Positions 9,744 to 44,875 of a stretch of DNA of 44,875 bases are shown here, in pieces. The notes under the pieces were generated by a model. That model worked only from the letters and a program-made list of their open reading frames with translations, had not been told where the DNA came from and did not search any database. The stretch spans positions 1 to 44,875 of the IMG/VR virus record IMGVR_UViG_3300017773_000025, one strand, 5' to 3'. Both the position numbers and the translations under genes were made by a program. The stretch's first letter is position 1. The number at the start of each line of letters is the position of its first letter. Source of the DNA: a virus.

Positions 9744-10172
9744 TTAAAGTCCTCCTTTGTTATGTACTAATATTTCATTTGCATAATAGTTATGACCACC
9801 ACTAACATTTGTTACATTATAAACTTTAAACATTCCTTGTTCTTCTTTCGTGGATACTACCTTAGCTTTTTCTCCGTTTAATTGATATACTTCAAAACCT
9901 TCTTTTAATTCAGCAGCATCAATTAAACCTACATTTTCACCGTCTATATGATAGAATGGGTGATGTTCAGTTGCCTTAATAGTAGATCCGTTGTCAAAGG
10001 TTAATACAATAACCATACCTACTTCTTCAATTACATCTAACCCACCTACGGTACCAACTCCTGGTGTTTTTGTGTTTTCATTCCATGTTATTACTTCTTC
10101 ACCTGGAATAATATCTTCAATATTTTTTGTATCTCCATTTGCTAAAGATATTTCAGTCCCGGCTACAAAACA
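9744..10172 (-). other. Hint domain (bacterial intein-like) at fibre C-terminus
   Basis: Residues 850-991 of the 991-aa fibre. Block A begins at C850 (CFVAGTEISLANGDTKNIED, 850-869). Block B is T917-E-H-H920 followed by P. The end is ANEILVHNKGGL with H986-N987. These are the residues needed for the N-S acyl shift and Asn cyclisation. The residue after Asn is Lys, not Cys/Ser/Thr, and only four residues follow, so ordinary protein splicing is not expected. Self-cleavage or transfer to a nucleophile is more likely. Confidence 0.85.
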
Positions 10173-12719
10173 TCCTGGTGAATTATCATAACCACTAATT
10201 GTTACTAAACCATTATTAGTAGAATTTATGGAAATTCCACATATACCCCAACCATGCTGTGTCTGTGTTGTGAAAGCGTCATCTTCGCCCAAATTAGCAT
10301 TTGCACCAGTTTGTGTTACGTATTGCCCGTCCCATATACAATCAATCATTTTATATCTACCAACACCATTACCTGCATCAGTACTATCTGTTGAAACAGT
10401 TACTACCTGATAACTAGGCTTTAATGCTAGATTAGGACTGAATGGTCCCCACCAAGAAGTCCAGTTTCCAGTTGATTTAGGAGACTTAATTCTATATTGT
10501 GGTATTCTTAAGTCAACTGAACCATATTGAGCTCTCGATACACCCGGTCCACTTTTTTGAGGAACATCTACCTGAAGAGCTTGGACATACAGCTTAATCA
10601 TTAATCTTTGACCAGGATATGCACCAATAGGAAAAGCAACCTTATAATCAAAATTAATATTGTTACCATTATTAAAAGAAGCCCCAGGTTCAGTATAACC
10701 TAACCCCGGCCCAAAGTTAAGAGAAATAAATGGAACTGTTAGTTCTTCAGTTTGTGGCATACCTGATGAAGGGAAATTATTATAGTATTGCGGTGTTAGG
10801 TCTTGTCTCGTATTCCAGCCATAATTTAATGGAGCAGGAGCCGTTGAAGAAGTACTTACAGTAGTAGTAGGAGCAGAGTTAATAGATGAATTTCTACCAG
10901 TTGCTCTTTTTAATACCCACGGTGTTGCAAATGCAATTTTATTTTTACTTGCAGTAAAGTATTCATTATTATTACCACTGTCTCTTACTGAAAATCCTAA
11001 TGTGTTATCCCACGCAAAATTAGCTGCCGGTACTGGATTCCCTGGACCTTCACTTCCCATTGTTATTGCCAATAAACCTGCATCTAAACCAGTAGTTGCT
11101 TGAGTTCCACCAGTCCATGCTTGTAACATTGCACCTGGAGAATAATCAGTAACTCCATTATTTCCAGTTAATTCATATATAGCTGTTGCTGTTGTTGCTT
11201 GGCCTGTAGGATTTTTGTATATTAAATTACCAAATGACGATGGTGGAAACGTTCCACTTTGGCCTTCACCAGCTATAGTTTGTCTTCCTACAAATCTTGT
11301 ATGAGGTTGCGCACCTGCACTTCCATCATATCCATAATCTATAACTATACTACAAGCATTTAGTGCAGCGGGAGATGCAAGAGTAGTTTCTTTCCTTAAA
11401 ATTATTTGACTATTCCCCATTATATAAATATCTCCACCTACGGTAGAATTGGGTGCAGTTGAATTATTAATAAGCCTAATATCACCAGTAGCAGTAACAC
11501 TGCCATCGGATTGTGTAATGTCAATATTACCATTTAGGGCTGAAGCAATGATTCCTCCAGATGCTGAAGTTAATTGAATTGCACCTCCCGTAGAAGATCC
11601 TAGTGTAGTATCTAACTTTAATTGACCAGCTGAATTTAATTGTATATTTTGATTTGCAGATGTTGTAACATTAAATAAACCTGATCTAAACTGAGTAACA
11701 CCTACTTGTGAATTTTGCTCTGTTACTACTGGAAATCCTGCTCCTGTTTCAAATAAAGTGGCTCCTGAAGTACCAGCTGTAGTTAAACTAAATTTATTAC
11801 CTGGTGGATTAGATCCTGTTCCAACATTAATACTAAAGTCAGAATTCTCACCACTAAAATCTTCGTTGGATCTTTGCCCAGTTTGGAATGTTATTGCTTT
11901 ACCTGCGGAAAAACTTTGTGACCTAGCCGGAACAGAAACTTCAAATCCGACTAATTCATCTACAGTGGTCGGGGTAGTAGCTACTTTAGGTGCACTTAAT
12001 ATTAATCTATCATCTACACCAATAGTGATATTACATAAAGAAGAAAGATTTGCCTGTTGATAGTTATCATTTAAATTTGCTGCACCTCCATGAAATACTA
12101 TAGACTTAGCAGCGGAGTCTTTCTGGTGAATTAATAATGATGCGGTACTAGATATCATTTTATCAGCGACTGCATCTGGTATAATATAAGCATTAGTTAA
12201 TGGAATAGAACCTAATGGGATAGTTGTAGATACTGCACCACCTATCATAACTGAAGGTACACCTTCATTTCCAGATGTTGCACCAGTACCTTCTCCTATA
12301 GGTCCATTATAAATAGCAGTTTGTAATCCTATAGTAGGTGAACCAAAAGTATCTCCCATACCACCACCTACTCCTTGTGGTCCTTGTGGTCCTTCTAAAT
12401 CTATAGTTGTTATAACCCAAGTCGTTCCGTTGTATTCCCAAACTTGACCGTTAAATTGTAAATAGTAATCTCCTTCTAATGGAGTACTTGTTGGATATGT
12501 TGATGTAGGATTAGCACCTGGTGCTGAAGAAGAAGTATCTTCATACCATCTTGTACCTTTAGGTCCTCTACCTCCAGCTGGACCAACAGGTCCTGAGGGG
12601 CCAATAGGGCCTGCGGGACCACCACCATTAAGTAACAATTGGTCAAAATTAAAATTTGTTTTATCGACCAGCTGTGAAATAGTATCTGATGCTATTATTT
12701 CTTGTATAGTGATTGGCAT
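9744..12719 (-). CDS. Collagen-like fibre protein with C-terminal Hint (intein-like) domain
   Basis: A 991-residue putative tail fibre. Parts in order: an N-terminal attachment segment (1-30, MPITIQEIIASDTISQLVDK), a short collagen-like run (32-56, GPAGPIGPSGPVGPAG), a Gly/Ser/Thr/Asn-rich beta-structured shaft (about 60-600), a globular region (about 600-849), and a Hint domain (850-991). The first 35 residues resemble the start of the 214-aa protein at 23621-24265, which suggests a shared attachment site. A probable role is receptor binding or tail decoration. The Hint domain could release the C-terminus or couple it to another protein. The gene is preceded by an A-rich leader (AATAGAAAAGAA) and follows the 1595-aa gene by 10 nt. 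Confidence 0.72.
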   Translation of the reverse strand: MPITIQEIIASDTISQLVDKTNFNFDQLLLNGGGPAGPIGPSGPVGPAGGRGPKGTRWYEDTSSSAPGANPTSTYPTSTPLEGDYYLQFNGQVWEYNGTTWVITTIDLEGPQGPQGVGGGMGDTFGSPTIGLQTAIYNGPIGEGTGATSGNEGVPSVMIGGAVSTTIPLGSIPLTNAYIIPDAVADKMISSTASLLIHQKDSAAKSIVFHGGAANLNDNYQQANLSSLCNITIGVDDRLILSAPKVATTPTTVDELVGFEVSVPARSQSFSAGKAITFQTGQRSNEDFSGENSDFSINVGTGSNPPGNKFSLTTAGTSGATLFETGAGFPVVTEQNSQVGVTQFRSGLFNVTTSANQNIQLNSAGQLKLDTTLGSSTGGAIQLTSASGGIIASALNGNIDITQSDGSVTATGDIRLINNSTAPNSTVGGDIYIMGNSQIILRKETTLASPAALNACSIVIDYGYDGSAGAQPHTRFVGRQTIAGEGQSGTFPPSSFGNLIYKNPTGQATTATAIYELTGNNGVTDYSPGAMLQAWTGGTQATTGLDAGLLAITMGSEGPGNPVPAANFAWDNTLGFSVRDSGNNNEYFTASKNKIAFATPWVLKRATGRNSSINSAPTTTVSTSSTAPAPLNYGWNTRQDLTPQYYNNFPSSGMPQTEELTVPFISLNFGPGLGYTEPGASFNNGNNINFDYKVAFPIGAYPGQRLMIKLYVQALQVDVPQKSGPGVSRAQYGSVDLRIPQYRIKSPKSTGNWTSWWGPFSPNLALKPSYQVVTVSTDSTDAGNGVGRYKMIDCIWDGQYVTQTGANANLGEDDAFTTQTQHGWGICGISINSTNNGLVTISGYDNSPGCFVAGTEISLANGDTKNIEDIIPGEEVITWNENTKTPGVGTVGGLDVIEEVGMVIVLTFDNGSTIKATEHHPFYHIDGENVGLIDAAELKEGFEVYQLNGEKAKVVSTKEEQGMFKVYNVTNVSGGHNYYANEILVHNKGGL

Positions 12720-12729
12720 TTCTTTTCTA

Positions 12730-15700
12730 TTATTTTTTAACTATCGTAACACTGAAACCAAACGATTCAGAGAAACCTGTTCTTTTATTATATATTAGCT
12801 TTAAATCAAATGGATTAGTATTTAATGTTTTTGATGCTACATTATTACTAATAGTTAAACCACTACTAATTTTTTGTGCATCAGTTAGCTCGGCTGTACT
12901 GAACGTATCCGGTTGTTTAACTCTACTTGCTAAAGTATAAAAATCAACCCTTTCTACTTTATATAACTTTAATATATTTTCTTTTATGTATTGTCTTACA
13001 TCATCATCTAAAGTTTCTAAATCTCCATAACCATATAGCTCATTAATGTATTTTTCAAACTGAGCTTTAATAGGATCAAATAAAAATTCAATTAATCTTT
13101 TTTGGTTAAACAGATAAAAAGAAATTACAGGCGCTGATGGCTTTTTCTGTATTTGTCTTATTTGTCTTACACCTTCTGTTTTTATAACTTTTTTATTAAC
13201 AGTAACAGATGCCTGATCCTCAAACATAAATGTTCCTTCAATTAAACTAGGTTGCCTAATTGCAGCTTTAACAAAAGGGTCAGGTTTAAAAGTATCTAAT
13301 ACAATTGTTTCTGGAACTTTAAGACTTTTAGATCCAAAGAATGACTTTCTTTCAAACATAGATCTTGTTCCTATAATTTTTTCTTCAAAAGATTTATCAA
13401 TACTTTTTACAAAATAAGAAGGTTCCCAGTTAGACGAGAACATATAAAAATCTCTATAGTCAATACCTATCTCATTAATTAAAGGGTATAAACTAGGGAA
13501 TGCACTTTCTCTTGATAATTCTAAAATAGTAGATGGATCTTGTTCATTTACTTTATGATAAAAGAAATTCTGAATTTGACCAAATTTTGGATCGGAACTG
13601 TTAAACTGTGCATTCTTATATTTACATAACTCCATTACTTTTATTTTATATGCTGCATCTGGAATAATTACAGTACCTGTTCCACCAGTTACTTCTTCAA
13701 AATCTAAATTTTGATAAGGGTCTCTAAACGATAGTAAAGGTAATGCATAAGGTTCATAATAACCAGCATGCCTAGCTATAGGTGTTATTCTTGGTGTCTT
13801 TTGTAAAGATAAATCATATCCTATTACATCAGCCAAGTTAAAGGCCGTTGGTTTTGCAGGATCTGGTAATACTCCAACATAAATAGATTTTAAGATGTCT
13901 GCTTGTGCTCTTAATTCAATTCCAAAAGTTTGAGCTAAACTTCCATCTTTATTTCTTACTTGGCTTCCGTCAGCTGCAATAGTTTCATATATGATACTAG
14001 GATCACCTTGGTTTACTGCATCAAATATATTACCGAACGCAGCAGCCGTTAATCTATCTTTAAATTGATCATAACCTCCAGACTTTACTGTATATTCAGC
14101 TGTTCTTAATTCTTGATTACCCGGTGTTGAATTAGGAACATTCATAGCGACGGGCTGTAATTGTGACGGATCATCTTTTGTAAATACACTTGCCAAAAGA
14201 ACATTTTTACTTACTACCTCAACAATTCCTGAAATACTAAATGTAGTAAGTACACCACTTATATCAATTTGAAACTTAATATTTCCAAATGTACCATCTT
14301 CTAATATTCTAACATCATTAACCAAATCAGGTTCTACACCGTTTATATCTGGCTGAAACCTAATTACATATATACCGTCACTATTTAAACTCGTCCCACC
14401 TAAGTAAACAGAACCTTTTAAAATAGTTGGTTCATATGCATATTTACCTGTACCACCTATAGTAGGTGCACATGTAGTTTTATTTCCATTTGGTCCGGTG
14501 GTGAAATTACTATTTAAGGAATATAAAGAAGTTCTATCTACAATAGGTTGAAGTTTAAATGCCCCTCCTCCACCACCTGGAACTCCATTAATACATTGAA
14601 TCACATAGTCAACTGAAATTAACATAACAACAGTTTTCCACTTTTCATTCTTTATAAACTTAACTTGGAATTCAGGTTTGTCAGGTAAATTAGGAACTAA
14701 GATTGCAGAAAATCTATAATCATTAAATGATCCATCATTTACATAAGATAATGCTCTTGCATTAAAATCTGCCTTTTCGGTTCCTATTGCTTTTTGTTTA
14801 GCAATAACTCTAACACCTCTTAAAAAAGTTTCTGAGAAATTCTTTTCATCTCCACCATTAAATCTACCATATCTTAATTGTCTATCAATCTCAGTAATAC
14901 CACCAGTCGTAAATCTTTGAACTATAAAATAATCATCAAAATAATTTTTGTTTACGTTTTGGAATGTACCTGGAACAAACGCCTGGCCTGTTACTGGATT
15001 AGCTTCAGTATTATCAGTTGGTGCTACATCAATATAACTCCATGAACTTTTAATAGCATCTTGTGTAAAATATAATGGGAACTCTGATAAGTAATACCAT
15101 TCGTGAGTATATCCACTGGCTTCTTGTATCTTATCCCACTTAGATGGTGCAAAGTTATTTAAACCAAATGCTTCATTAACATCTAATCTATATGGGTGGT
15201 TTCTTACATCTTTTCCACCATTAACCCATGCCCATTTATTAATGTATGGTGCAATTCTAGAAATGGCAGCTTGTGATGTTAAAAAGTTTTCTTCTAATCG
15301 ACTATATTCACTTTTAATATATTGGTCCCCATCCTTTTCTTCATCAGACACTAAACCTATAAGATTATAAAATCCACCGTTGTCATAAAAATTTCTAATC
15401 TGTGGATTTTTACTTATACCTACATAATCTACAAATGGTGGTGTTGTACTAAATGGCTCTACTGCTCCAGGTTTTAGTTGATTATATTGAGCAAATTCAA
15501 AATCTAATTCTCCTTCTTCACTATATAATGTACTATAAAAATCAAAATCAAAATCCTTAACATCAAAAAATGAAAATCTACCAAATGAAGGTTTATAATC
15601 TGAATATAAAGCAACTTGGTTAGATCTTGTAACCATAATCTGATTATCATTACATGTAATAATAGCATACTTATCAATATCAGTATAACCTATAATTTCA

Positions 15701-17517
15701 TCTAAGCCATTATAGATAGGCTCATCAGTATAAGGTACCCAGTCCCCTATTGTAGCAAAACTACCTTTGGTTTGTACAAAGTCACCAGGTGTAAATCTAT
15801 CTTGGTCTCCTAGGGTAACTTTTAATAAACTATTTTTAACATCATTACCACCTACAAAGTTTTTATTAGGAGTGGCTACACTAGTAATAGGATATGTTTC
15901 TACTTGATTATAAAATTCTGGAAATGTAATATCAGTTTTAAAATTTAATCTATTAAACCTCGTGCCACTAAATCTTGACTTAACATAAACAGTGCTGTCA
16001 TTATAAGATGCTACAAAAAATCTATCATTTTCATTTATACCTTTATTAATAGCAGATGTTATTGCTTGTGCAACTTCTTGTATTGTCCCATTAGGATTAA
16101 AAAATCTTTCAAAAGATTTTCCTGGTACTGGTGCCAATGCCTTGTTTGCAAATATTTTACCTATTAAATTATTTCCATCAAAGAATGCAATAGAAGAACC
16201 GTCTTGTATATTATCTTTTACTTGAATATACATTTGTGCAACACCAGCACGTTGTATAATACTTGCATTAGCAAAAGTATCTGGATCTTTATACCCGGTA
16301 AATAAAGATATATCTACTTTGGTATCAAATAGTCTTATTTGATTTTCACTCCAATTAGAACCTTTTTTAACAGTATGAAAATCGTCTTCTTTATCTTTAA
16401 CATAAAATATAGACTCTACCTCATCTACTCTTTTAGGTGTTGGTAGGCCTGTTATAGTTTCTGTTTTAGTAGGATCTAAATATAATAATATACCATTTTC
16501 ATTTGTCATTTCAAATGGTGTATTTAATAATTGTGATACTTCAGTTATAGTTGTTATTGTAGGCTGTTGGGTTTTTTCAGCAGAAGTCCCTTTATAAAAA
16601 GCTTCTCCTGATATATCAAATTGGCCTTCTTCTATTTCATTAACATACATACCAAAATAACGGTTGATAGAATAATCTTCGGCAGTAGGATCATCAAATA
16701 AAAACTCCATGTTTAAAAGATTAGCTAAAAGAATACCATTATTCTGAAACCCTTGTGTAAATAAATATTCATCTTGAATAATAGTAGAATCTTTAGTGAC
16801 TAGATCTTCATATGAAAAACTACCTGAACTTGTAAAACCTCCACTCTTATAAGATATACCATTCCATAAAATTGGCTCATCTTTTCTCCATGTCATATTT
16901 AAAGGAACTTCTGGAAAAGTTTCTTGGTTTCTATAATTTCTTATATAGGATCCTAGCGCGGTACCTTCAGTTAAATCAAATGTTTTGATTGCAGTACAAT
17001 TCTCCAAAACATTTTTATTAAAATCAGCTGATGTTTGTGCCGATGTAGAATTTGTATTTTCGTTGGCAGCTCTTAAATTGTTTACAGCAGCAGGATTGTC
17101 TAATCTAAATATTACAAAATAATTTGGGATTTGCTCATTTAACCAAAGAGGTGCTAATGTTCCTAGGCTTTGCGGATAAGTTTCAGATGCTATAGATCTA
17201 GTACCTGCACAATAGAACATTTCATACTGGTTACCATACTTAGAAAGTACAGCGTCATCTTCATATTCTTGAAATATTTCATATGCAGCTTCTTTAGGAA
17301 ATTTACCAAAATCAAAAAACCTATAGACGTCTCGATCATAGGTACTAGTTCCATCAACCTTAAATGCTTTAAATTTCTGAGAAGACAATCGAGTATTAGC
17401 ACTAAACGATTCTAAGTAAATATCTGTACCATCAGATACAATTTTTACATTACCGGTTAATTTAGGATTTGTTCTAATTAAACTATACGATGCTTTGTCG
17501 AGCAGGTTTTCAGCCAT
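12730..17517 (-). CDS. Very large structural protein, probable baseplate or fibre component (1595 aa)
   Basis: The largest gene in the window. It encodes a Phe/Tyr/Asn/Asp-rich protein with repeated beta-sandwich-like stretches and no signal peptide, enzyme motif or transmembrane segment. The N-terminus (ASYSLIRTNPKLTGNVKIVS) and a conserved-looking block around 60-140 (YRFFDFGKFPKEAAYEIF) begin the protein. The C-terminal ~250 residues contain basic helical segments (about 1470-1540, RQIRQIQKKPSAPVISFYLF). It lies between the 1295-aa gene and the fibre gene, where T4 has gp9-gp12 type genes, so a peripheral baseplate or long fibre role is likely. No T4 homologue was recognised. Confidence 0.6.
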   Translation of the reverse strand: MAENLLDKASYSLIRTNPKLTGNVKIVSDGTDIYLESFSANTRLSSQKFKAFKVDGTSTYDRDVYRFFDFGKFPKEAAYEIFQEYEDDAVLSKYGNQYEMFYCAGTRSIASETYPQSLGTLAPLWLNEQIPNYFVIFRLDNPAAVNNLRAANENTNSTSAQTSADFNKNVLENCTAIKTFDLTEGTALGSYIRNYRNQETFPEVPLNMTWRKDEPILWNGISYKSGGFTSSGSFSYEDLVTKDSTIIQDEYLFTQGFQNNGILLANLLNMEFLFDDPTAEDYSINRYFGMYVNEIEEGQFDISGEAFYKGTSAEKTQQPTITTITEVSQLLNTPFEMTNENGILLYLDPTKTETITGLPTPKRVDEVESIFYVKDKEDDFHTVKKGSNWSENQIRLFDTKVDISLFTGYKDPDTFANASIIQRAGVAQMYIQVKDNIQDGSSIAFFDGNNLIGKIFANKALAPVPGKSFERFFNPNGTIQEVAQAITSAINKGINENDRFFVASYNDSTVYVKSRFSGTRFNRLNFKTDITFPEFYNQVETYPITSVATPNKNFVGGNDVKNSLLKVTLGDQDRFTPGDFVQTKGSFATIGDWVPYTDEPIYNGLDEIIGYTDIDKYAIITCNDNQIMVTRSNQVALYSDYKPSFGRFSFFDVKDFDFDFYSTLYSEEGELDFEFAQYNQLKPGAVEPFSTTPPFVDYVGISKNPQIRNFYDNGGFYNLIGLVSDEEKDGDQYIKSEYSRLEENFLTSQAAISRIAPYINKWAWVNGGKDVRNHPYRLDVNEAFGLNNFAPSKWDKIQEASGYTHEWYYLSEFPLYFTQDAIKSSWSYIDVAPTDNTEANPVTGQAFVPGTFQNVNKNYFDDYFIVQRFTTGGITEIDRQLRYGRFNGGDEKNFSETFLRGVRVIAKQKAIGTEKADFNARALSYVNDGSFNDYRFSAILVPNLPDKPEFQVKFIKNEKWKTVVMLISVDYVIQCINGVPGGGGGAFKLQPIVDRTSLYSLNSNFTTGPNGNKTTCAPTIGGTGKYAYEPTILKGSVYLGGTSLNSDGIYVIRFQPDINGVEPDLVNDVRILEDGTFGNIKFQIDISGVLTTFSISGIVEVVSKNVLLASVFTKDDPSQLQPVAMNVPNSTPGNQELRTAEYTVKSGGYDQFKDRLTAAAFGNIFDAVNQGDPSIIYETIAADGSQVRNKDGSLAQTFGIELRAQADILKSIYVGVLPDPAKPTAFNLADVIGYDLSLQKTPRITPIARHAGYYEPYALPLLSFRDPYQNLDFEEVTGGTGTVIIPDAAYKIKVMELCKYKNAQFNSSDPKFGQIQNFFYHKVNEQDPSTILELSRESAFPSLYPLINEIGIDYRDFYMFSSNWEPSYFVKSIDKSFEEKIIGTRSMFERKSFFGSKSLKVPETIVLDTFKPDPFVKAAIRQPSLIEGTFMFEDQASVTVNKKVIKTEGVRQIRQIQKKPSAPVISFYLFNQKRLIEFLFDPIKAQFEKYINELYGYGDLETLDDDVRQYIKENILKLYKVERVDFYTLASRVKQPDTFSTAELTDAQKISSGLTISNNVASKTLNTNPFDLKLIYNKRTGFSESFGFSVTIVKK

Positions 17518-17566
17518 TTATCTTTCACTTTTTTTATTTATTCACTAAAGATAAAGTTAAAATAAA

Positions 17567-20500
17567 TTAGGCTAGAGGTCCTAATCCACCATCCCTATTG
17601 GTAAGCTGTATACCGCTTCTACCAACTGATGTTTGAGTAAGAGATGGTCTTAATCCTGCAACAACTTTTTCTAAATCATTTAATCCTTTAGTAACTGTTG
17701 CTTTAGGGAATACATCTATACTTAACCTATCAGATCTATATTTAGCAGATATTTCAATATCAAATTGAACTACATCTGAATTGTTAGGATATAGATCAAA
17801 CCCAATTCTTTTAGTGTAAGTAAGATTAACCGTAGATCCTGTTTCATCTCCACCAATATTACCTAACCCTGTACCTGAAGTAGTACCGAAATAATCAGTC
17901 ATTCTATATTGAAATACTAAAGGTACACTCACAGCATTTTGTTGACCAAATTGTACAATTTCTCTAGATTGAATAGAATCACCATCTACTTGAATATTTA
18001 AATGATTATCAGCAGAAATGAATAAATAAGATCCACAGGATTGTCTTCCTAATGTATATTGATCAAAACCTTCAAATGAATTTTTTGAATTTCTACTATA
18101 ACCACCAGTAACATAACTAGCAGAAGTAGTATCCCAAAGGTTTGCTAAAGCAGCAGATGATAATGATGGGCTAGCCTGTAAACTTTGACCAGTATCAAAT
18201 GGTACTACTAATTGTGCAACACCACCAGATCCTGTTGCTAGGTTATAAAGATCTGTTACATTTTCATTTAAATAAATTCCTTGTTGTTTTCCATAAGCCT
18301 GGTCTTGTGTTAATGGTGCAAATTTAGATTGTCTAAATAATACGGCACCAGTACCATTACCTGTAGAAGAACAGTCTACGAAAGAACTAGCAGTAACAGG
18401 TAAGGTTGCAGTATCTCCAGTTAAAGCTATATAAGCATCTCTATATGCGGCATAATTAGTTAAGAAAGGGTGTGCAATTGATATAGCTAAAGTATCATCA
18501 GCAGGTACCTGTGCACCTGGAAATGATGATACGGTACTTGGTAAACCTGTAGATAAAAATCCACCACCCCAAATAAATTCTGTCGTAGGAGCAGCGACTG
18601 TAGTAGCACCAGTAGCAGCATAAAAGTTTTCTTCTGTGTCTAAGTTAAAAGTATAATTACTTTCAGGATTAATATAACTATAAAAATTACCTTCAGCTGA
18701 TACATCCGAAAATCTACTATAAATAAATTGATTCTTATTTTGTGTAGACTGGTATGGAGGTTGAGAAACCATTTGTCCATATTTTGTAGTCGATGTAGTA
18801 TCAGGATTAGTTAAAAGAATTGGTGTAAGATCATATTTACGAATAGTATTGTAATCTGAATCATCCCCTCTAAATGTAGCTCTATCATTTGACTGATTAG
18901 CTTGGCTATTATCTAACCATGAATAAGTTGCCGGTAGAATAACAGACCCATTAACCAAATCACCAACATTACCCGGCGAATATAGTCCAGGATTTTCAGA
19001 TTGTTTTACCATCCTACTTCTATTTCCTGTTATTCTTGCAATTAATTGTAGTGCAGTCTGAGATCTATTAGCAATATTAATAAAATAAGTCTTAGTTACG
19101 ATTGCTCCCCTAGGATCATCTAAACCATCAACCTCTTGAGAATAAAAACCTGCAAATACTTTTGTTGTTGCATTTCTTCTTAGATTAAAAGTATTACCAG
19201 TATCATCTACTAAAGTAGTTTGTAATTCACCTTGAGCACTACTTAATATTTCAGAAAATAAATCTAATTGATTTTGCATTTCATTTAACTTAGTAAATAA
19301 GTCAATCGGTGTTTGATTTTCTGATAAGAAACCTGAAGCAATTACTGGTGAAGAATGCGCATAATAAGTTTCGTTTGCAGTAAATGAACTACTTAAATGT
19401 TTAGGTAAATCTATTGATTCTAAATTTTCATTTAATGCAACCTGTGCTAAGTCTTCTTGGTTTTGAGCTAAGATAGATTCAATAGCACTATCAGAGCTTA
19501 AGTCCGCCGGAAACTCAACTCTTATTGGCGTACTATATTCACTCTCTAATGGATTAGATGGCCACCCAGCTTCAGAAATAGATTTTACTTCTATTTCAAC
19601 TTGTTCACCTTTTCTAATTGGAATGTCTAATTGATTTATATTAACCGATGTAGCATTATCATCATCTATAGGAGCCCACTCATATAATCCTGTTAGATTA
19701 TTTTTTATTCTTGGTCTTAATACACTATCTACAATTACATAATTAGAAAATGCGCCTTGGCTTGTACCTGAACCATCAGTGTAAGTAAATTGATCAACCG
19801 CATTTGCCGCACCATCGGCAGAAAGATATCGGTAGCGATATTGAAATTTAATTATATCTTGTATGCCAGTTTCAGCTGCAGATTTTTCTTCAGGCATTGC
19901 CCAGAATCCTCTTACTCTATATTTAGGAGTTACACTACTCACTGAGTTATCCGAAGCAAAAGAATCAATTTCTGTAACAACCGAAGCATATAGTTTTGCC
20001 TGTGAAGCTCTTTCTGTAATTAAACCTTGTAAAGCATTTTTATCTGAATCTCTTTCAACCTCAGTAGTATAATTGGTAGTCTGTATTTTTGTTCTGCTCT
20101 GAGAAATTGCAACATCCAATTCACTTAATGTAGATTGAATAGTATTTTTTTGATTATTTAAATCTTTAAGTTGAACTATAGCATCTGAATTACTTACTTG
20201 ACCATTAATTAAACTTACTGTAAAATCATCAGGGCTTAAAACTGGAACATTAGGAATTATACCTTCTCTACTTGTTGGAAACTTATCTTGAGCAAACGAT
20301 AGAAGATATCTACCAAAATCAACAGCATTCTGTTGGTAATAATTTGCTAAAGTTTGTTCACCACCAGAAGAATCAATTGTTGTTAAATTATTTGTATAAA
20401 AACCACTTCCTGGTGACCAATTAACTGCAGGTATTTTTGAATCAGGATCAATAGGCTTTAAAAAGGTTACACACCTTTCATTAAAACCAACAGTAACATC

Positions 20501-21454
20501 CACTTCTAAACTATCACTTAATGCAGAACCTATTTTTAAAACATCAGCTCCAATACTTATTGTTCTAGAACCTTCTTGTAATCTTACGATAACAGAATTA
20601 GTACTCGTATCAATCTGTGTAACAGTATATCGTGTATCGATGGGTGTAGAGACAACCTCTAAACTATCACCAACTTTAAGTTGTACTGTATCAGGAAAAT
20701 CAGCCTCAGCATCTGTATAAAAGATTTTGTTTAATTTATACAATTTTTGAACAACTGTTTGTTCAACTCCATTAACTGTTTCAGTAACACTTTCTTCACC
20801 TATTCTTATTACACTAAAATTACCTGAAAATCTTTTATCTCGTGGTGGTAAATCTACAACAGCTTCATCTAATACATAAGATATATTCTTTTCTACAATT
20901 TCTTGTAAAAATGTATCATAATCAATTGCAGCATTTCCACTATATTGAGATTCAAAAAAGTTAATTTTACTTTGTGAGTTAGTATCTAAAATATATCTCT
21001 GTACTATGGCTCTTTCTGTATCAATTGGCGCTTGTCCAGTTATATCAAAAGAAACATACAATAAAGGATTAATTAATTCTTCAAAAAACCAATTAGGTTT
21101 AATGTCAAATTGATTAATAGAATTTATAGCAGTTAAGTCTTGTGCTTCAACTGGTAATTTAGCTAAAACCAATTTTCTAAATGTTCCGTCTGCTAACCTA
21201 ATAGAACTGTTAGCATCATTAAAATTGGTTAGGGTATTAATATTAGTCTGTAGTCTATCAACCGAGTTTTTAAGAAATCCAAAACTTGGAATAGTAATCC
21301 TAGAATTTGTGCCATCATTATTCTGAATATTAACAGTTACCGAATCTCTACTTGAGGTGATCGCCTGATTAACTTTCTCAAAGCTCTCCAGTGAATTGTT
21401 AAAAAGTCTTAACAGTTCTGGGAGCATTGTTTGTATTGAATTATTTTCAGCCAT
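17567..21454 (-). CDS. Large structural protein with coiled coil and Fn3-like domain (1295 aa)
   Basis: The 1295-residue protein begins AENNSIQTMLPELLRLFNNS, a helical N-terminus. A predicted coiled coil lies at about 425-500 (LKDLNNQKNTIQSTLSELDV and following), then a region with fibronectin type III-like spacing (about 510-660, YRVRGFWAMPEE ... VEIEVKSISEAGWPSNPLES). The C-terminal half is Ser/Thr/Gly/Asn-rich beta structure ending TNRDGGLGPLA. It is likely part of the outer baseplate or a fibre, since it follows a 706-aa coiled-coil protein and precedes the 1595-aa protein, all minus strand with gaps under 50 nt. The Fn3-like call is by eye. Confidence 0.58.
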   Translation of the reverse strand: MAENNSIQTMLPELLRLFNNSLESFEKVNQAITSSRDSVTVNIQNNDGTNSRITIPSFGFLKNSVDRLQTNINTLTNFNDANSSIRLADGTFRKLVLAKLPVEAQDLTAINSINQFDIKPNWFFEELINPLLYVSFDITGQAPIDTERAIVQRYILDTNSQSKINFFESQYSGNAAIDYDTFLQEIVEKNISYVLDEAVVDLPPRDKRFSGNFSVIRIGEESVTETVNGVEQTVVQKLYKLNKIFYTDAEADFPDTVQLKVGDSLEVVSTPIDTRYTVTQIDTSTNSVIVRLQEGSRTISIGADVLKIGSALSDSLEVDVTVGFNERCVTFLKPIDPDSKIPAVNWSPGSGFYTNNLTTIDSSGGEQTLANYYQQNAVDFGRYLLSFAQDKFPTSREGIIPNVPVLSPDDFTVSLINGQVSNSDAIVQLKDLNNQKNTIQSTLSELDVAISQSRTKIQTTNYTTEVERDSDKNALQGLITERASQAKLYASVVTEIDSFASDNSVSSVTPKYRVRGFWAMPEEKSAAETGIQDIIKFQYRYRYLSADGAANAVDQFTYTDGSGTSQGAFSNYVIVDSVLRPRIKNNLTGLYEWAPIDDDNATSVNINQLDIPIRKGEQVEIEVKSISEAGWPSNPLESEYSTPIRVEFPADLSSDSAIESILAQNQEDLAQVALNENLESIDLPKHLSSSFTANETYYAHSSPVIASGFLSENQTPIDLFTKLNEMQNQLDLFSEILSSAQGELQTTLVDDTGNTFNLRRNATTKVFAGFYSQEVDGLDDPRGAIVTKTYFINIANRSQTALQLIARITGNRSRMVKQSENPGLYSPGNVGDLVNGSVILPATYSWLDNSQANQSNDRATFRGDDSDYNTIRKYDLTPILLTNPDTTSTTKYGQMVSQPPYQSTQNKNQFIYSRFSDVSAEGNFYSYINPESNYTFNLDTEENFYAATGATTVAAPTTEFIWGGGFLSTGLPSTVSSFPGAQVPADDTLAISIAHPFLTNYAAYRDAYIALTGDTATLPVTASSFVDCSSTGNGTGAVLFRQSKFAPLTQDQAYGKQQGIYLNENVTDLYNLATGSGGVAQLVVPFDTGQSLQASPSLSSAALANLWDTTSASYVTGGYSRNSKNSFEGFDQYTLGRQSCGSYLFISADNHLNIQVDGDSIQSREIVQFGQQNAVSVPLVFQYRMTDYFGTTSGTGLGNIGGDETGSTVNLTYTKRIGFDLYPNNSDVVQFDIEISAKYRSDRLSIDVFPKATVTKGLNDLEKVVAGLRPSLTQTSVGRSGIQLTNRDGGLGPLA

Positions 21455-28669: not shown

Positions 28670-30526
28670 TTATTCTCCTTTTAGTGCTTTAAGCGTTGGT
28701 GTATTTTGTAACCTACCGGTATTTAAACCTGCAGAGTTTGCACCAGTCGCAATTGTAGTACCTCTATTTCTTTTAGTTTGGTTATACTTTTCTTGTTGTA
28801 TTTTATTATAAAGATTATTAGCTATTGCTTCTTTATAGAATACATTAAGAGAACCTATTTTATTTGCATCTGGGATAGGCTCATAGAAAGTTCCATTTCT
28901 ATCTTTCCATCCACCTCTTATGATTGCTATGTCATTGTTTTCAATAATAATATCTCCAAAACTATCTAATCCTAAATTAGGATCTTCACCTTTCTTTAAA
29001 ACTATTTTCTTATTCTCTATTAATGCTCTTTGGTCAGTCACAGGATCTGTTCCATAAACAGGAACAAAATAAAAACCATCTCTGATTGCTTTTTCATTTT
29101 CTTCAGAGATAAAGAATACATTTACAGAATCAATTCCTTCAACATTTTCAATTATAGAAATAATATCAGATCGTGGAATTCTATCTCTTCTATTTACATT
29201 TAAGAAATACTCATCTAGATTTTTTCTTATTTCAATTCTTATAGCATCCTTATCATAATTTTCAAACCACCTTACTACAACATTAAGAGCATACTTTTTA
29301 ATTACAGGATCTACGATTCTAGTTTCTGCCGTAACTACTTGTCTTCCACTCTTATTTAAAATTTCATAAGTCATTTCTTTTTCCTGTGTGGTCATAGTAA
29401 ATTCTACCTCAGGTACACTAAAGTAATCTAAATCACTAGTTAATTTTTTCTTTACATCTGGAACTAAGAATAGGTAAATAATATTGTCATCATCCAAATA
29501 TTCATCATTCTTAGTATTATAAGCATCTATGAAAGACCAAAAGTCATACTTACTTAGATAGTAAATATAATTATTAGGATTTGCTAATACAAAAGAATTA
29601 CTTTGGTACGGCGCAATTAATCTTGTAAAATTAGGATCTTCAGAATCAGACCCAAACATTGGGTTTCTTGTAATGTTCATTGAAAGAATTTCATTTAAAT
29701 CAACCTGCTCACCTGAAGAATCTGTCCCAGGGTCTGAAAATTTAATATCTAATTGTTTACCTCCAATATTACCAGCCACTCCTCTAGTCTTTACATAAGT
29801 TATTCTAATTCTTGAACCTAATGCAGGTGGTTGCCCAAATTGATTATTTCCAAAGAAAACACTTAGCCCTCCATTAACACTAGTTTTAATCATAGCTGCT
29901 TCTTCACCATTGTTCATATCATATATTGAATCAACTAACTTCCATTTTTTACCATCAACAAAACATTCCACTAAATATTGATCTGTAGGTTCTTTCGTAG
30001 ATAAGTTATAACTTTGTAATGGATTACCAGATCCTGTAAATGATTGCTCATCTTTTTCACCTTGGATAATTTCAACATTAACAAATTGTTTATTACTTTT
30101 ATCTAATCTAATAAAATCACTATTAAATCTTAAAAAATAAGTTAAACTATTTTGTCCTATTTCAAAAGATGAACCATTCATAATCTGAACATAGTCACCA
30201 TTAAGAAGGCTAGATGCACTTGTATTTAATCTTAATCCAATTATACCTCTTGCAGATATACCTCTTGTAGGATCATGCCCTGTTAATCTAGATAAACCGT
30301 AAATAGATTCAATATTTCTTGCTCTTGAAATATTCATTTCAGTTGCAACTGCTTCTATATAAAAGAAAATCATTTCACCTAAGTTAGAAACCACAGTTAA
30401 AATTTGACCGAATGGTGAAGCAGGAGTAAATACTTCTACTGCTTGGTCATAAGTCCTCTGGAGATATTCAAATGAATCCTCAAATAACTCTGTAGCCTTT
30501 AATCTTGTTTTACTAAAAAATGACAT
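28670..30526 (-). CDS. 6: Baseplate wedge protein gp6-like (baseplate J family)
   Basis: A 618-residue protein of the gp6/baseplate-J type; T4 gp6 has 660. The helical N-terminus (SFEYLQRTYDQAVEVFTPAS) is followed by a FFYIEAVATEMNISRARNIE helix and the SIYGLSRLTGHDPTRG turn typical of the family. In the C-terminal third, KKYALNVVVRWFENYDKDAI, then IRKNLDEYFLNVNRRDRIPRS and IIENVEGIDSVNVFF, form the usual beta-alpha-beta J core. It dimerises in the wedge and triggers the baseplate shape change. It lies 13 nt after gp25, as in many contractile tail systems. The Lys/Asn-rich C-terminal tail (about 575-618) is probably disordered. Confidence 0.85.
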   Translation of the reverse strand: MSFFSKTRLKATELFEDSFEYLQRTYDQAVEVFTPASPFGQILTVVSNLGEMIFFYIEAVATEMNISRARNIESIYGLSRLTGHDPTRGISARGIIGLRLNTSASSLLNGDYVQIMNGSSFEIGQNSLTYFLRFNSDFIRLDKSNKQFVNVEIIQGEKDEQSFTGSGNPLQSYNLSTKEPTDQYLVECFVDGKKWKLVDSIYDMNNGEEAAMIKTSVNGGLSVFFGNNQFGQPPALGSRIRITYVKTRGVAGNIGGKQLDIKFSDPGTDSSGEQVDLNEILSMNITRNPMFGSDSEDPNFTRLIAPYQSNSFVLANPNNYIYYLSKYDFWSFIDAYNTKNDEYLDDDNIIYLFLVPDVKKKLTSDLDYFSVPEVEFTMTTQEKEMTYEILNKSGRQVVTAETRIVDPVIKKYALNVVVRWFENYDKDAIRIEIRKNLDEYFLNVNRRDRIPRSDIISIIENVEGIDSVNVFFISEENEKAIRDGFYFVPVYGTDPVTDQRALIENKKIVLKKGEDPNLGLDSFGDIIIENNDIAIIRGGWKDRNGTFYEPIPDANKIGSLNVFYKEAIANNLYNKIQQEKYNQTKRNRGTTIATGANSAGLNTGRLQNTPTLKALKGE

Positions 30527-30539
30527 TTACTTTATTATT

Positions 30540-30902
30540 TTAAAAAAGAGCACCAATGACTCTTTGTTCATTTACGAAAATATCAACTAAACAACCATCT
30601 CTTCCCTCAGTAGAAAAGAAACTTACTTTAGTGTCAACATCAAATCCTGCTAAGTCTGGTAAACAGTAAGCAGTAATCTGGCCGTTGACAGCATTCTCTA
30701 TTGTATTCTCATTTAACACTAATGAAAATATTAATTCATCTAAATTAGCACCCATATTAGAAGCTCCTAAAACATCACCTTTTCTAGTAAAAAGACAATT
30801 TTCTATTTTTATTATAAGCTGAGATAACTTATCACTCACCTCCAATGTAGCATCATTAAATTTTGGAGCGGCAGCATCTCTACTATAAATATCTTTAATC
30901 AT
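30540..30902 (-). CDS. 25: Baseplate wedge protein gp25-like
   Basis: A 120-residue member of the gpW/gp25 family; T4 gp25 has 132. Pattern: an N-terminal helix with DKLSQLIIKIENCLFTRKGDV, a GASNMGANLDELIFSLV motif matching the P-x-F-G-x-x-L-x-x-x-L-F core, and a C-terminal beta pair (VSFFSTEGRDGCLVDIFVNE). It joins the inner baseplate to the first sheath disc and is needed for sheath assembly. It has its own promoter-like motif (30921-30932) and a 60-nt upstream gap, and leads into gp6. Confidence 0.82.
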   Translation of the reverse strand: MIKDIYSRDAAAPKFNDATLEVSDKLSQLIIKIENCLFTRKGDVLGASNMGANLDELIFSLVLNENTIENAVNGQITAYCLPDLAGFDVDTKVSFFSTEGRDGCLVDIFVNEQRVIGALF

Positions 30903-30962: not shown

Positions 30963-31826
30963 TTATCCTGTGAAAAAGTAGTCAACACCTTCATCACCTT
31001 TAATTTCTTCAACTACTCTATCAACTTCTTCTCTGCCTTCAGATGAGATCATGTCATAATTAATTGTAATATTACCTGGAAGATTAAAAGAGAATGTTCC
31101 TAAAATTCTAGATAATTGAATTTTAGCCATTCCTATTACATATCTTTGGAATGCTTCATCATCAAAAAGTGCACAATCAGAAATAGTAGAAAAGATTTCA
31201 AATATAACAGCACGCTTTGGTAATTCACCTTGGAATCTAAACTTCTTAGTTAGCCTATTATAAGTATATGATATTTGCGGTAATAAAACTTGTCTTGCAT
31301 TGTCCATGAATAATGAATTAACAACATAGTACATTAAATTTTCACTTCCTATACCAGCACCATAAACATCATCATAAATAAATTTATCAATTGAAAAGTC
31401 AACATCGTCTGCATTAAAACTCATTTGACCAAATCCTCCATCTTCTCCACTGAATCCACCAATTTCAAATACATCATTAACAGAATATACTCGAGATGGC
31501 ATCTGAACAATACCTCTAGGATTAGAAATTTGATTTTTGTTAGTTATAGTTTCGTTAGATTGACCAGTTCCATGTGGCACGCCTTGTTTAAAGCTAGTTT
31601 TTGATAATGCACCAGCTGGTAAAGCAATATACATTTGCTCTACACTATCTTCATATATTTTATAAAAATATTGTTTTGCTCTTTGGATAATATTGTTTAG
31701 TTCTTTCTTAGGAACTGTAAACGGTATTTGACATGCAATTGTAAGATCATCATTAATTAATTTGATTAGTGCATCTAAACATGCAGCTTCATCTGGATCA
31801 TTACAATAAGTATTCTTATTAGCCAT
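30963..31826 (-). CDS. Putative tail or neck structural protein (287 aa)
   Basis: A 287-residue protein without recognised enzyme motifs. An N-terminal helical part (ELNNIIQRAKQYFYKIYEDS) is followed by a Gly/Asn/Asp-rich middle and a conserved-looking C-terminal helix (FQRYVIGMAKIQLSRILGTF, then ITINYDMISSEGREEVDRVV). That helix-loop pattern (Y-V-x-x-x-A-K-x-x-L-x-R-I, then L-x-S-E-G) recalls structural proteins of T4-like marine phages, without a clear T4 equivalent. The start is 6 nt after the amidoligase stop, so the two are co-transcribed; a 60-nt gap with a new promoter motif then separates it from gp25. Confidence 0.5.
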   Translation of the reverse strand: MANKNTYCNDPDEAACLDALIKLINDDLTIACQIPFTVPKKELNNIIQRAKQYFYKIYEDSVEQMYIALPAGALSKTSFKQGVPHGTGQSNETITNKNQISNPRGIVQMPSRVYSVNDVFEIGGFSGEDGGFGQMSFNADDVDFSIDKFIYDDVYGAGIGSENLMYYVVNSLFMDNARQVLLPQISYTYNRLTKKFRFQGELPKRAVIFEIFSTISDCALFDDEAFQRYVIGMAKIQLSRILGTFSFNLPGNITINYDMISSEGREEVDRVVEEIKGDEGVDYFFTG

Positions 31827-31832
31827 ACTATT

Positions 31833-33125
31833 TTATATTTTTTCTATTTCAATTATTTCCGTATTTTCAAACCTAGCCATTTTAGTAGCTCTACCTTTTC
31901 TAAAAATACCACCTTCCATTTCTCCACTAAATACTCCTTTAGGTCCAAAGACATATGAATCTTTACATATTACATTTTTACTAACATAAGAATCTTCTAT
32001 CTTACAATCAGCTGCATCAGTTGCACCAAATAAGTTACTTTCAAATAAAGATGAATTTACTAACTCTGAGCTAAAGATATCACAATTTAAAATGTTACCT
32101 TGAATTTTACAGTCTACAATATCAACTCCTTTTATTTCAAAACATCTCATTAGTTCTGCATTCTTTAATTGCATTCTACCAGTATCAGCATCATAGTTAA
32201 TCAAACCTTCTTTTAAACCAGCTAAAGTTAAAAGCTTAAAAAGCTCTTCTCTCATTTTAGGATAAAATGTTTCTACAATTTGATCATATGTTTTAAGATC
32301 AACCATTAATCTTATCTTTGGAAATTTTTTCTTAAATGCTTGGTAGTCTTTATAAGATTCAACTATACCACTGTGCTTTTCTAAAACAACATCTAATTGT
32401 TTAAGATCTGCATCGGTATATTGAGGATACATTAAAGTTTCATATAATGATACAACAAAATGTTCTGTTAAATTCATTATTGTATTATACTTCTTCTCAT
32501 AATCTTTTCCACCAAGATATCTAAATTCAATATAATTCTTAGGTAACTTAGAAAAGTTTACACCATAATACTTTTCAGATACAAACATATAATTTTTCCA
32601 TGAAATTCTTTCAGGAGATGGTTGAGTCATTCCACTTAAAGGAACAATAAATTTTATTGACTTAGCATAAACAGAATCTTTTCTATTAGGAAATGCTTCA
32701 TATATTTTATTCTCATCAAAATTTAATACAAATTTACCAATATCTAAATTTGATATATTTGTAGGAACTCCTAATTTCTTTCCATCAAAAGCTACGTTAA
32801 CATGAATAGAACATCTTTCATTAGTAGATCCATTTTCACGAATCCATTTTAATGTTTTAGCAATAATAAGTTTTGATTCAACGAAAGGCATTGGCCCGGT
32901 GACTAATTCTATCATACCGGTTCCACCTGAATTATCAGGCTCTAATTTGAATGTTTCATCACTAGGAGTAAAATCACTATGAGCCTTTTCCTCTATTTGT
33001 ATTCTTTTATTTAAAGCATTAGAAAGGCTTCTTTTAACCTCATCTAATCCTTCATTAGCAAAGAATTCAAATTCTAATCCAATCTTGGATGCATATATAG
33101 CATTTAATTGTTCGTTGGTGTACAT
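31833..33125 (-). CDS. Amidoligase-fold protein with C-terminal beta-helix
   Basis: A 430-residue protein whose first ~215 residues fit the glutamine synthetase-like amidoligase family (Amidoligase_2 type). Motifs: KIGLEFEF (E18, E20), KLEPDNSGG (E62, D64), MIELVTGPMPF (E73), CSIHVNVAF (H108) and NYIEFRYLGG (E200, R202). This family forms amide bonds using ATP, for example by attaching amino acids or amines to peptides. A helical linker (about 215-320) leads to a repeat region (326-420) with pentapeptide-like, right-handed beta-helix periodicity (CKIQGNILNCDIFSSELVNS). It sits between the S1-like gene and tail genes with its own promoter motif, and it is co-transcribed with the 287-aa structural gene. 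The substrate is unknown; a virion or cell-wall peptide is possible. Confidence 0.78.
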   Translation of the reverse strand: MYTNEQLNAIYASKIGLEFEFFANEGLDEVKRSLSNALNKRIQIEEKAHSDFTPSDETFKLEPDNSGGTGMIELVTGPMPFVESKLIIAKTLKWIRENGSTNERCSIHVNVAFDGKKLGVPTNISNLDIGKFVLNFDENKIYEAFPNRKDSVYAKSIKFIVPLSGMTQPSPERISWKNYMFVSEKYYGVNFSKLPKNYIEFRYLGGKDYEKKYNTIMNLTEHFVVSLYETLMYPQYTDADLKQLDVVLEKHSGIVESYKDYQAFKKKFPKIRLMVDLKTYDQIVETFYPKMREELFKLLTLAGLKEGLINYDADTGRMQLKNAELMRCFEIKGVDIVDCKIQGNILNCDIFSSELVNSSLFESNLFGATDAADCKIEDSYVSKNVICKDSYVFGPKGVFSGEMEGGIFRKGRATKMARFENTEIIEIEKI

Positions 33126-33140
33126 GTAGTTCCTGATTTG

Positions 33141-33150
33141 TTTATATATT
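33141..33150 (-). promoter_or_regulatory. Promoter-like motif AATATATAAA before the amidoligase gene
   Basis: It reads AATATATAAACAAAT on the minus strand, 15 nt before the ATG at 33125. It shares all 15 bases with the motif before the 118-aa gene at 5791. Confidence 0.5.
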
Positions 33151-33165
33151 CAAACCAGGAATAGG

Positions 33166-34308
33166 TTATGCTATGTTCATTGTAATCTTACGATCACTAA
33201 CATTCACACTACCAATTTTTACATTTATTGTATCACCTTTAGATAATTCAGCACCCTTTAGTTTTGATTTATGAATTAATCCACTGATTCCTTTTTCTAA
33301 TTCTACAAATGCACCGTATGAAGTTATTTTAGTTACCTTACCTTCAGTAATCATCATAGGTTTATATTTCTCATCAACACCATCCCATAAATCAATCTTA
33401 GGTCCTAATTGGCTTAATATAATTTTTCTATCCGATATAACTTCTTTAGCCCAGAATCTAATAGGGTCTCCTGGTTTAATACTTCTATCATCTAATGCTT
33501 TTTGGAATTCTTCACTTAATTCAGCTTTAGGAATTAATCCTGTTAAGCATTCATCAAATTCTGCAAATACACCAAACTTAGTTGTACCTGTTACAAAACC
33601 AGCTCTTTCTTCTTTTATTGTTTCATTTAACTTATCAATAGTAGAAGGAATCATTGTTCTTAAATATTCTCTATGAGATACTACAACCGTATCCTTTTCC
33701 CTAGAGAATGTTATTGGCATAACTATTATTTCTTTACCTACTAATACATTAAAATCATGTAATTTATTTAACCCTCCTAATGAACCTGGCATAAAGCATT
33801 TAATTCCTGCAACATCTACCCAATATCCACCATGAATTAATTCCTTAACTTTTGCAGTGAATCCTATAGTAGAATTTCCAATTGCATCTTTTATTTCTTT
33901 TAGCTTAACCTCTTGTATAGCATCGGATATCGAAGCCATAACATCACCGTTCTTTTTATTAGTTTTAATCTTAACATCAATTTCCATACCTACTTCCAAT
34001 TGTTCTACAATATAATCAGGTTCTTTAGTTAAAGTACAATAGGCTGTATATTTAGATTCAATATCAATGAGAGCTCTTTCTCTATCTTTGGATATGAAAG
34101 AAACCTCCCCTCTCGTGGTATATGCCACGTTGTCTTCTATAAGTTGTGTTTTCTTTGCTTGGGGATCTGTTAGTCCATACATTGATAAGGCATCAGCAGC
34201 ATATGCTTCATTACACATTAATTTTGTACCTTCAGGAACTTGGACTTTTACTTTCTTAGTATCAAATGGATCATCACTTAATTGAATTGTGATTTCTTGT
34301 TCAGTCAT
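33166..34308 (-). CDS. Ribosomal protein S1-like protein with four S1 domains
   Basis: A 380-residue RNA-binding protein built of four OB-fold S1 repeats: about 66-130, 147-212, 234-300 and 320-378. The second resembles repeat 2 of bacterial S1 (GFTAKVKELIHGGYWVDVAG, then CFMPGSLGGL and DTVVVSHREYL, compared with F-L-P-G-S-L and V-V-V-S-R-R in S1). The fourth is a classical S1 motif (EGKVTKITSYGAFVELEKGI, then SGLIHKSKL and DRKITMNIA). Cellular S1 has six repeats and binds mRNA at the ribosome, so this is a shortened version with an extra N-terminal segment (1-60). It could steer host ribosomes to phage A-rich leaders, or act on mRNA stability. It has its own promoter motif and is flanked by tail genes. 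Confidence 0.82.
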   Translation of the reverse strand: MTEQEITIQLSDDPFDTKKVKVQVPEGTKLMCNEAYAADALSMYGLTDPQAKKTQLIEDNVAYTTRGEVSFISKDRERALIDIESKYTAYCTLTKEPDYIVEQLEVGMEIDVKIKTNKKNGDVMASISDAIQEVKLKEIKDAIGNSTIGFTAKVKELIHGGYWVDVAGIKCFMPGSLGGLNKLHDFNVLVGKEIIVMPITFSREKDTVVVSHREYLRTMIPSTIDKLNETIKEERAGFVTGTTKFGVFAEFDECLTGLIPKAELSEEFQKALDDRSIKPGDPIRFWAKEVISDRKIILSQLGPKIDLWDGVDEKYKPMMITEGKVTKITSYGAFVELEKGISGLIHKSKLKGAELSKGDTINVKIGSVNVSDRKITMNIA

Positions 34309-43516: not shown

Positions 43517-44875
43517 TTATGTTGGTATGTTAAATGAAGCAATCATTTTTCTAGCCTGTAAAGTAAATTCCTCAACTACTATTGCAGGGTTACCGGTTGG
43601 GTTACGAACTTCCATTCCTACACCTTCAGAATTTTTTAAATTAAGGAACACTATACCAGTATAAAATCTACCTTGACCACCACCGCCAACAAATTCAATT
43701 GCTTCGTCATGAAGTATAGTACCTGCGTGATTGATAATCTGTAAACGAGCCGATCCACCACTAAGAGCTGCTGAGGTTGTAATAAGAACACTATATCTAA
43801 CTTGTATATCTGTCGCTGTACCAATATTTTTAATTCCATCAGTCTTTCCTGTTCCAACACTAGAGAAATCAGCATGCTGTAGATCATTACTTAATGTTGA
43901 CTGGTCAATATACTGAGTTCCATAAAGAGCAGTATCTACAGAACTACCTGAACTGTTAGCAGCAATAGTCTGGTTGGTGCTAGTCTTAATAATAGTAGGC
44001 TCTGACCAAAGTACACTTGCAGAGCCACCCCCACCTTGTGGACCAACGGCACCTTGATTACCTATAGCACCGGTACCACCTTGGGCACCTGTTCCACCAA
44101 CACCAGTTGCGCCTTGGCTACCGGTTGCACCACCAAATCCAGTTGCACCCTTATCTCCAGTTTCACCTTTAGCGCCCTGTAGGCCAGTAGCACCTTGTAG
44201 TCCTACCGCACCGGTTGCTCCTTCATTACCTACTGTACCTTGATTACCAACCTTTCCTTGATTACCCGTAGCACCTTGTTGACCAATAGCGCCTTGTTCT
44301 CCAGTTGCTCCTTGTTGACCAACTGCTCCTGTAGATCCTGTAAAACCAGTTGCTCCTTGGAATCCTACAACACCAGTTGCACCTTGTGATCCAGTGGCTC
44401 CAGTAGATCCAACTCCACCAGCACCGGTCGCCCCTGTTGCTCCAGTTATGGAAGTACCATAAGCAGTAAATTCTAAAACAAAATCTATACCTTGACCCCA
44501 GTTAGCAGTATAAGTTAATTCAGTAATTGTTAAGTCATATACATTACCTACTAAAGCTACAGCAGTTACTACACCATGCAAAATTTGTTGATTATTACCA
44601 GCGGTTAATATAACAGCACCAAATCCAGTTGATGCTTGTCCGGTATCATCAAAAGTATTAAGGAATGTAGTTTGATCTAATCCTAATGAATCTGTTTTAT
44701 TAATATACAGGCTTGTGGTTGCAGCATCATAATAGAATTTACCAGAAGGTGGGGTAGTTACACCAACTACTCCTGATTGCCAAGGTAAACCGTTTCTTGG
44801 ACCAATTGCACCAGTAGATCCAGTAGCACCTGTATAACCTGTAGCTCCAGTTGCACCTGTATAACCTGTAGCTCC
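43517..44875 (-). CDS. Collagen-like fibre protein, 5' end outside the window
   Basis: The reading frame stays open to the window edge, so the true start lies beyond 44875; the TTG codon at 44581 is inside the gene. The 452 visible residues contain a G-A-T/G-Y-T run (44795-44875), a non-collagenous spacer, about 46 G-X-Y triplets (44024-44443) and a C-terminal domain of ~165 residues. That domain ([20 protein letters not shown] ... [19 protein letters not shown] ... [16 protein letters not shown]) has the strand pattern of a C1q/TNF-like jelly roll. Such collagen plus jelly-roll proteins form trimeric fibres used for adhesion. The triplets are dominated by GAT and GxQ, with no hydroxylation-dependent proline richness. 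Confidence 0.82.
44024..44443 (-). repeat. Collagen-like G-X-Y repeat region
   Basis: About 46 in-frame triplets (residues G47-G186 counted from the internal TTG at 44581), mostly GAT, GxQ and GxV, with interruptions near each end. At the DNA level they appear as repeated caccttg-type words on the plus strand. Such runs are prone to slippage and length change. Confidence 0.85.

Follow-up and report, generated by a model that had tools for sequence, protein, structure and literature searches.

The question raised by this locus is what a glutamine synthetase-like amidoligase, joined to a beta-helix, does among the tail genes of a phage. The window is the whole stretch of DNA that was analysed, 44,875 nucleotides of IMG/VR virus record IMGVR_UViG_3300017773_000025, and the gene in question has an ATG start and its stop at position 31833 (Table 1). 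The first-pass annotation, made from the letters of the DNA, had assigned the product to the amidoligases on the motifs GLEFEF, LEPDNS, ELVTGP, SIHVNV and IEFR; all of these were present, far above chance.

Table 1. Features of the amidoligase gene, its product and the adjoining genes (window positions; residue numbers refer to the amidoligase protein)
Feature	Position	Strand	Basis
Amidoligase/beta-helix fusion protein, 430 aa	31833..33125	-	Open reading frame, profile, relatives, AlphaFold2, structure matches
Glutamine synthetase-type catalytic domain, residues 1-235	32421..33125	-	VIA Z 12.6 to 4bax; invariant motifs
E18-F-E20, GxExEF metal-binding strand	33066..33074	-	36/36; also Atu_ph07 and SCTP-2 relatives
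E73 of ELVTGP	32907..32909	-	36/36; also Atu_ph07 and SCTP-2 relatives
H108 of SIHVNV	32802..32804	-	36/36; also Atu_ph07 and SCTP-2 relatives
E200-F-R202, EFR motif	32520..32528	-	E200 and R202 36/36; also Atu_ph07 and SCTP-2 relatives
Helical linker, residues 236-302	32220..32420	-	AlphaFold2/DSSP
Pentapeptide-type right-handed beta-helix, residues about 331-385	31971..32135	-	5-residue strand period, fold neighbours
C-terminal beta-hairpin cap, residues 386-430, conserved G-x-M-x-GG-x-x-R-x-G	31836..31970	-	AlphaFold2, alignment
Promoter-like AATATATAA, 17 nt upstream of amidoligase start	33142..33150	-	Motif counts, conservation
S1-domain gene, 380 aa, upstream of amidoligase	33166..34308	-	PF00575 4.4e-23
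Neck/head-tail adaptor-like gene, 287 aa, downstream of amidoligase	30963..31826	-	phrog_211 8.6e-13
gp25-like baseplate wedge subunit	30540..30902	-	phrog_43, weak, 0.0072
gp6/J-like baseplate wedge subunit	28670..30526	-	phrog_219 4.4e-25

The AlphaFold2 model of the protein, calculated from an alignment of 36 members with 30-80% identity, had a mean pLDDT of 89.2 and contained the predicted glutamine synthetase-type fold. Residues 1-235 matched glutamine synthetase catalytic domains with a Foldseek E value of 5.6e-6, and the VIA alignment (Z 12.6) covered 182 residues at 3.2 Å. G16, E18, E20, D64, E73, H108, E200, R202 and Y203 were invariant in all 36 relatives, which go down to about 29% identity, and E18, E20, E73, H108, E200 and R202 were also kept in the proteins of phages Atu_ph07 and SCTP-2 (both copies), which are only 20-23% identical. 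By motif order we take these six residues to be the metal ligands and the phosphate-contacting arginine of glutamine synthetase. The active-site cluster proposed earlier (E18/E20/E62/E73/H108/R202) held for five positions, each invariant in 36/36, and less strictly for E62, which was kept in 35/36 and lost in locus L068 and in one member of family profile A3. Conserved loss of the acidic residues among relatives, which the first reading had named as counting against it, was not seen, E18, E20, E73 and E200 being present in 36 of 36. With a dN/dS of about 0.1 for the whole protein against close relatives, the amidoligase is under strong purifying selection.

Formal family membership was checked with PF12224 (Amidoligase_2), for which the gathering cut-off is 22 bits. 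The window protein reached only 15.0 bits (E=0.023), so that the profile search suggested in the first reading fell short of the cut-off. The best match among 24 relatives was 7.6e-5, and no match over the cut-off was obtained in any of 12 huge-phage records. Direct PF12224 searching of the window and of the huge genomes was therefore rejected as too insensitive a detector of the family. Profile A3 matched protein AUZ94978 of Agrobacterium phage Atu_ph07 at E=1.7e-21, and AUZ94978 itself scored 30.2 bits with PF12224, above the cut-off. Profile A3 also matched two tandem genes of Salicola phage SCTP-2 at about 1e-12 to 1e-11, and hhalign gave a probability of 97.4% for the relationship to accepted amidoligases. 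By these profile comparisons the huge-phage family is clearly homologous to accepted PF12224 members, though formally outside the curated cut-off. The gene product is very probably an ATP-dependent carboxylate-amine ligase of the glutamine synthetase-like amidoligase superfamily. This chemistry follows from the fold and the residues; the choice of target does not.

The pentapeptide-like beta-helix claimed for the C-terminus proved to be real. The last 131 residues modelled alone gave a pLDDT of 93.4 and formed a beta-helix with a strand about every 5 residues, plus a long hairpin. Pentapeptide_4 matched 11 of 24 relatives (best 1.1e-9), the window protein itself not being among the matches. 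The fold neighbours of the domain included the pentapeptide-repeat proteins AlbG, MfpA and QnrB1, with Z values of 8-9; other beta-solenoids scored equally well. The likeness to these three proteins lies in the right-handed beta-helix of five-residue period, but here the helix is a short module joined to an enzyme, with no sign of DNA-gyrase mimicry.

A search of predicted viral proteins (BFVD) gave one full-length match, followed by phage amidoligases including the Atu_ph07 protein. The full-length match, A0A6J5PQ40 of an uncultured Caudovirales phage, is uncharacterised and unannotated; with TM scores of 0.89/0.87 it is the same fused protein, although only 25% identical in sequence. AUZ94978 (500 aa) has the amidoligase domain and the catalytic residues in common with the window protein, but is extended by a long insertion behind the first motif and has no pentapeptide beta-helix. 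Its gene lies one gene from the portal gene, on the strand opposite to its structural neighbours. The SCTP-2 paralogues gp124 and gp125 (phrog_33777; 647 and 606 aa) share the catalytic signature, but have long insertions and neither a beta-helix nor a Pfam match. These two amidoligase-like genes (L178:12041-15801) are located near a ClpP-like protease gene. As the beta-helix is absent from both outgroups, Atu_ph07 and SCTP-2, its fusion to the enzyme is a distinguishing mark of the huge-phage clade.

The tail-operon context suggested for the gene was borne out by the neighbouring genes and their PHROG matches, more exactly as a tail/neck operon. A gap of 40 nt separates the amidoligase gene from the S1 gene, and one of only 6 nt separates it from the same-strand gene of 287 aa. 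The proposed pairing with the latter was also confirmed, the partner matching PHROG 211, head-tail adaptor. When loci were recruited via the adaptor instead of the amidoligase, the amidoligase was directly upstream in 76 of the 76 loci with enough upstream sequence, a sample consisting mostly of near relatives. Elsewhere in the window, a 354-aa protein with a collagen-like repeat (43517-44581, minus strand; PF01391, 2.3e-13) is probably a fibre, and three very large tail-region genes of 991, 1595 and 1295 aa occupy positions 9744-21454 (minus strand).

Eight copies of the element AATATATAA were found on the coding strand of the window. Six of them (minus strand; 5809, 30923, 33142, 34339, 41235 and 42907) precede a gene start by 14-31 nt; the genes are the amidoligase, S1, gp25, g39 and two others. 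Thus 6 of the 8 same-strand copies fell into 40-nt upstream zones that make up 3.1% of the window, while shuffled zones contained 0.4 on average. The copy upstream of the amidoligase was kept throughout the near clade, to which the window belongs, including loci with altered flanks. A hairpin in the S1-amidoligase interval (33126-33170, minus strand; -12.3 kcal/mol, z -4.4) overlaps this element and was considered as a functional element, but it was kept in many, not all, near relatives. As AATATATAA was kept in all of them, the interval is better read as carrying a promoter-like element. An Rfam search of the window gave no match. From its position and conservation AATATATAA may serve this lineage of phages as a late promoter, which suggests, without proving, that the amidoligase shares regulation with structural genes.

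In the near clade the gene order was S1, amidoligase, neck adaptor, gp25-like and gp6/J-like. The adaptor was located downstream of the amidoligase in 76 of 78 distinct loci, and of the 72 loci having upstream sequence, 67 had the S1 gene as the first gene on that side. In the far clade the operon was broken up, and the amidoligase adjoined g38/g39 in most loci; in L068 it was near gp25 and the adaptor, and in L166 near the adaptor and g39. Two loci, L067 (735 kb) and L073, were exceptions with the amidoligase away from structural genes. In many far-clade phages a gene of about 140 aa and a DHH-phosphoesterase gene followed the amidoligase with overlaps of 1-4 nt. Position alone is no proof of a virion role, as tail regions carry non-structural genes too, for example the S1-domain gene, whose product in the window contains multiple S1 domains. 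In L001 (8819-9960) the S1-domain gene was split into two open reading frames, probably by a frameshift or a sequencing error. A partnership with the ATP-grasp protein R2K_3 was also considered and rejected; R2K_3 was present in 7 of 9 genomes, never near the amidoligase.

Many proteins of the far-clade loci L065, L066, L068 and L144-L169 begin with MKYLKKFE or MIKKYQNFLNEE-like sequences, which resemble MKTYQEFIAE, the capsid-targeting sequence of T4 internal proteins. Such starts were found in 32 of 434 far-clade proteins versus none of 1725 internal Met positions, and by this resemblance the proteins may be packaged internal proteins. The DHH-family phosphoesterase following the amidoligase (L170:11843-13693, L148:11810-13663 and equivalents) has an N-terminus of this kind. 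The N-terminus of the amidoligase was likewise considered as a capsid-targeting sequence, because far-group members start with MKKYSDKFLNQ; as the window protein does not, this reading was dropped. In L132 an in-frame upstream start at 2998 would give the amidoligase the N-terminus MKYIKKFRLYMYSNEQ, which is like the capsid-targeting motif; this may be chance.

Six clear relatives were found in annotated phage records, all in huge phages of 462-735 kb, and in IMG/VR the family is encoded, according to a profile scan, by at least 566 stretches. Complete genomes of 634, 636, 642 and 735 kb belong to the Mahaphage clade, and Bacteroidetes hosts were predicted for the genomes over 634 kb (PMC7162821). 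Each of the 12 huge-phage-clade records searched contained one full-length copy; W03 and W04 had one further weak partial match each, and two records outside the huge-phage clade contained one and two distant relatives. No match was obtained in two Lak phages (540 and 542 kb), an empty answer that is not proof of absence. Between the window and L064 the identities were 43% for the amidoligase, 48% for the adaptor, 50% for gp6 and 43% for g39, and over the whole range the divergence of the amidoligase paralleled that of the adaptor, the gp6-like protein and g39. A bacterial origin was also considered. A scan of a genome collection gave only three matches, the MAG contigs L172-L174, which may well represent phage sequence placed in bacterial bins, and thus no cellular reservoir was found. 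The amidoligase/beta-helix fusion is a single-copy core gene of huge phages and not an oddity or one-off. The superfamily itself was already known; the fused architecture and the core late-gene context are new here.

The reading that we prefer, tentatively, is a late ATP-dependent amidoligase whose target is a virion protein or late protein of the phage, the beta-helix being its docking module. The enzyme would be expressed late, together with neck, tail and baseplate proteins. By analogy with the family chemistry, it would bind ATP and Mg2+/Mn2+ through E18/E20/E73/H108/E200, phosphorylate a carboxylate and join it to an amine. A virion protein or late protein of the phage might supply the carboxylate or the amine, and this protein or the assembling tail might be recruited by the beta-helix and the conserved cap. 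That the target is a phage protein is itself possible without being firmly indicated: the genes of L067 and L073 are not beside structural genes, many far-group genes are tightly coupled to the genes of about 140 aa and DHH-phosphoesterase instead of tail genes, and the Atu_ph07 relative is on the strand opposite to its structural neighbours. The conserved C-terminus of the adaptor was rejected as a substrate, as far-group adaptors do not retain the FFTG end.

A host target, somewhat unlikely but the most serious alternative, would be cell-wall peptides, whose amidation or crosslinking the enzyme would change late in infection, blocking superinfection or tuning lysis. Podoviruses like phiEco32, LUZ24 and RIO-1 carry amidoligase cassettes for which a cell-wall role was proposed, and the PF12224 proteins of phages have so far been interpreted as wall modifiers (PMC5498523, PMC10580990). 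Late timing would fit such an exit function. These podoviruses, including the LUZ24-like UFV-P2, resemble the present case in having a PF12224-type amidoligase in a lytic phage. In their cassettes the amidoligase occurs with GATase, ATP-grasp, AIG2/GGCT and COOH-NH2 ligase (PMC5498523), whereas in the window it is a lone gene among virion genes, without GATase and not in the UFV-P2 order. A defining partner, the GATase II domain GATase_6 (PF13522), was missing from all nine huge-phage genomes searched, and the positive control was matched in 14. COOH-NH2 ligase (PF14395) was also not found in the nine genomes, but gave no match in the control genomes either. The lack of GATase_6, together with the linkage to structural genes, tilts the balance in favour of a target among the virion or late proteins of the phage.

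It is improbable that the enzyme modifies the translation apparatus, attaching amino acids to a ribosomal or S1-like protein in the manner of RimK, together with the multi-S1-domain protein encoded upstream. Besides the S1 gene being the usual upstream neighbour in the near clade, S1-domain proteins are encoded in each of the six huge-phage genomes tested, in most of them with a frame of 362-409 aa. In the far clade, however, the S1 gene was far from the amidoligase, so that the pair is not a conserved unit. A metabolic ligase forming glutamine or gamma-glutamyl products, carried as an auxiliary metabolic gene, has little likelihood too. True glutamine synthetases were the best solved fold matches, but the identity to them was only about 9-16%, and an auxiliary metabolic gene would not typically be linked to the neck gene throughout the near clade or diverge in step with structural genes, as this one does. 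A structural protein that retains the glutamine synthetase fold with its catalysis lost would agree with the tail-operon position and with the missing E62 of L068 and one A3 member, but is highly improbable, as the other active-site residues were retained in all relatives including those of Atu_ph07 and SCTP-2, and the dN/dS is low.

Within the preferred reading of a phage-protein target, a more speculative and rather doubtful proposal is that huge phages possess a late enzyme dedicated to tagging or crosslinking a virion protein of the neck, tail or baseplate through covalent amide bonds, with the fused beta-helix as its guide. If true, assembly of the largest phage particles would include a hitherto undescribed post-translational step. 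The cultured phage Atu_ph07, which has a relative of the enzyme domain, makes the hypothesis testable. Phage amidoligases have hitherto been read as accessory cell-wall modifiers, but the one described here is conserved, in single copy, among the largest phages known. As a core gene under strong purifying selection with neck and baseplate neighbours, it is a candidate for a covalent modification during virion assembly or for an essential activity that modifies the host late in infection.
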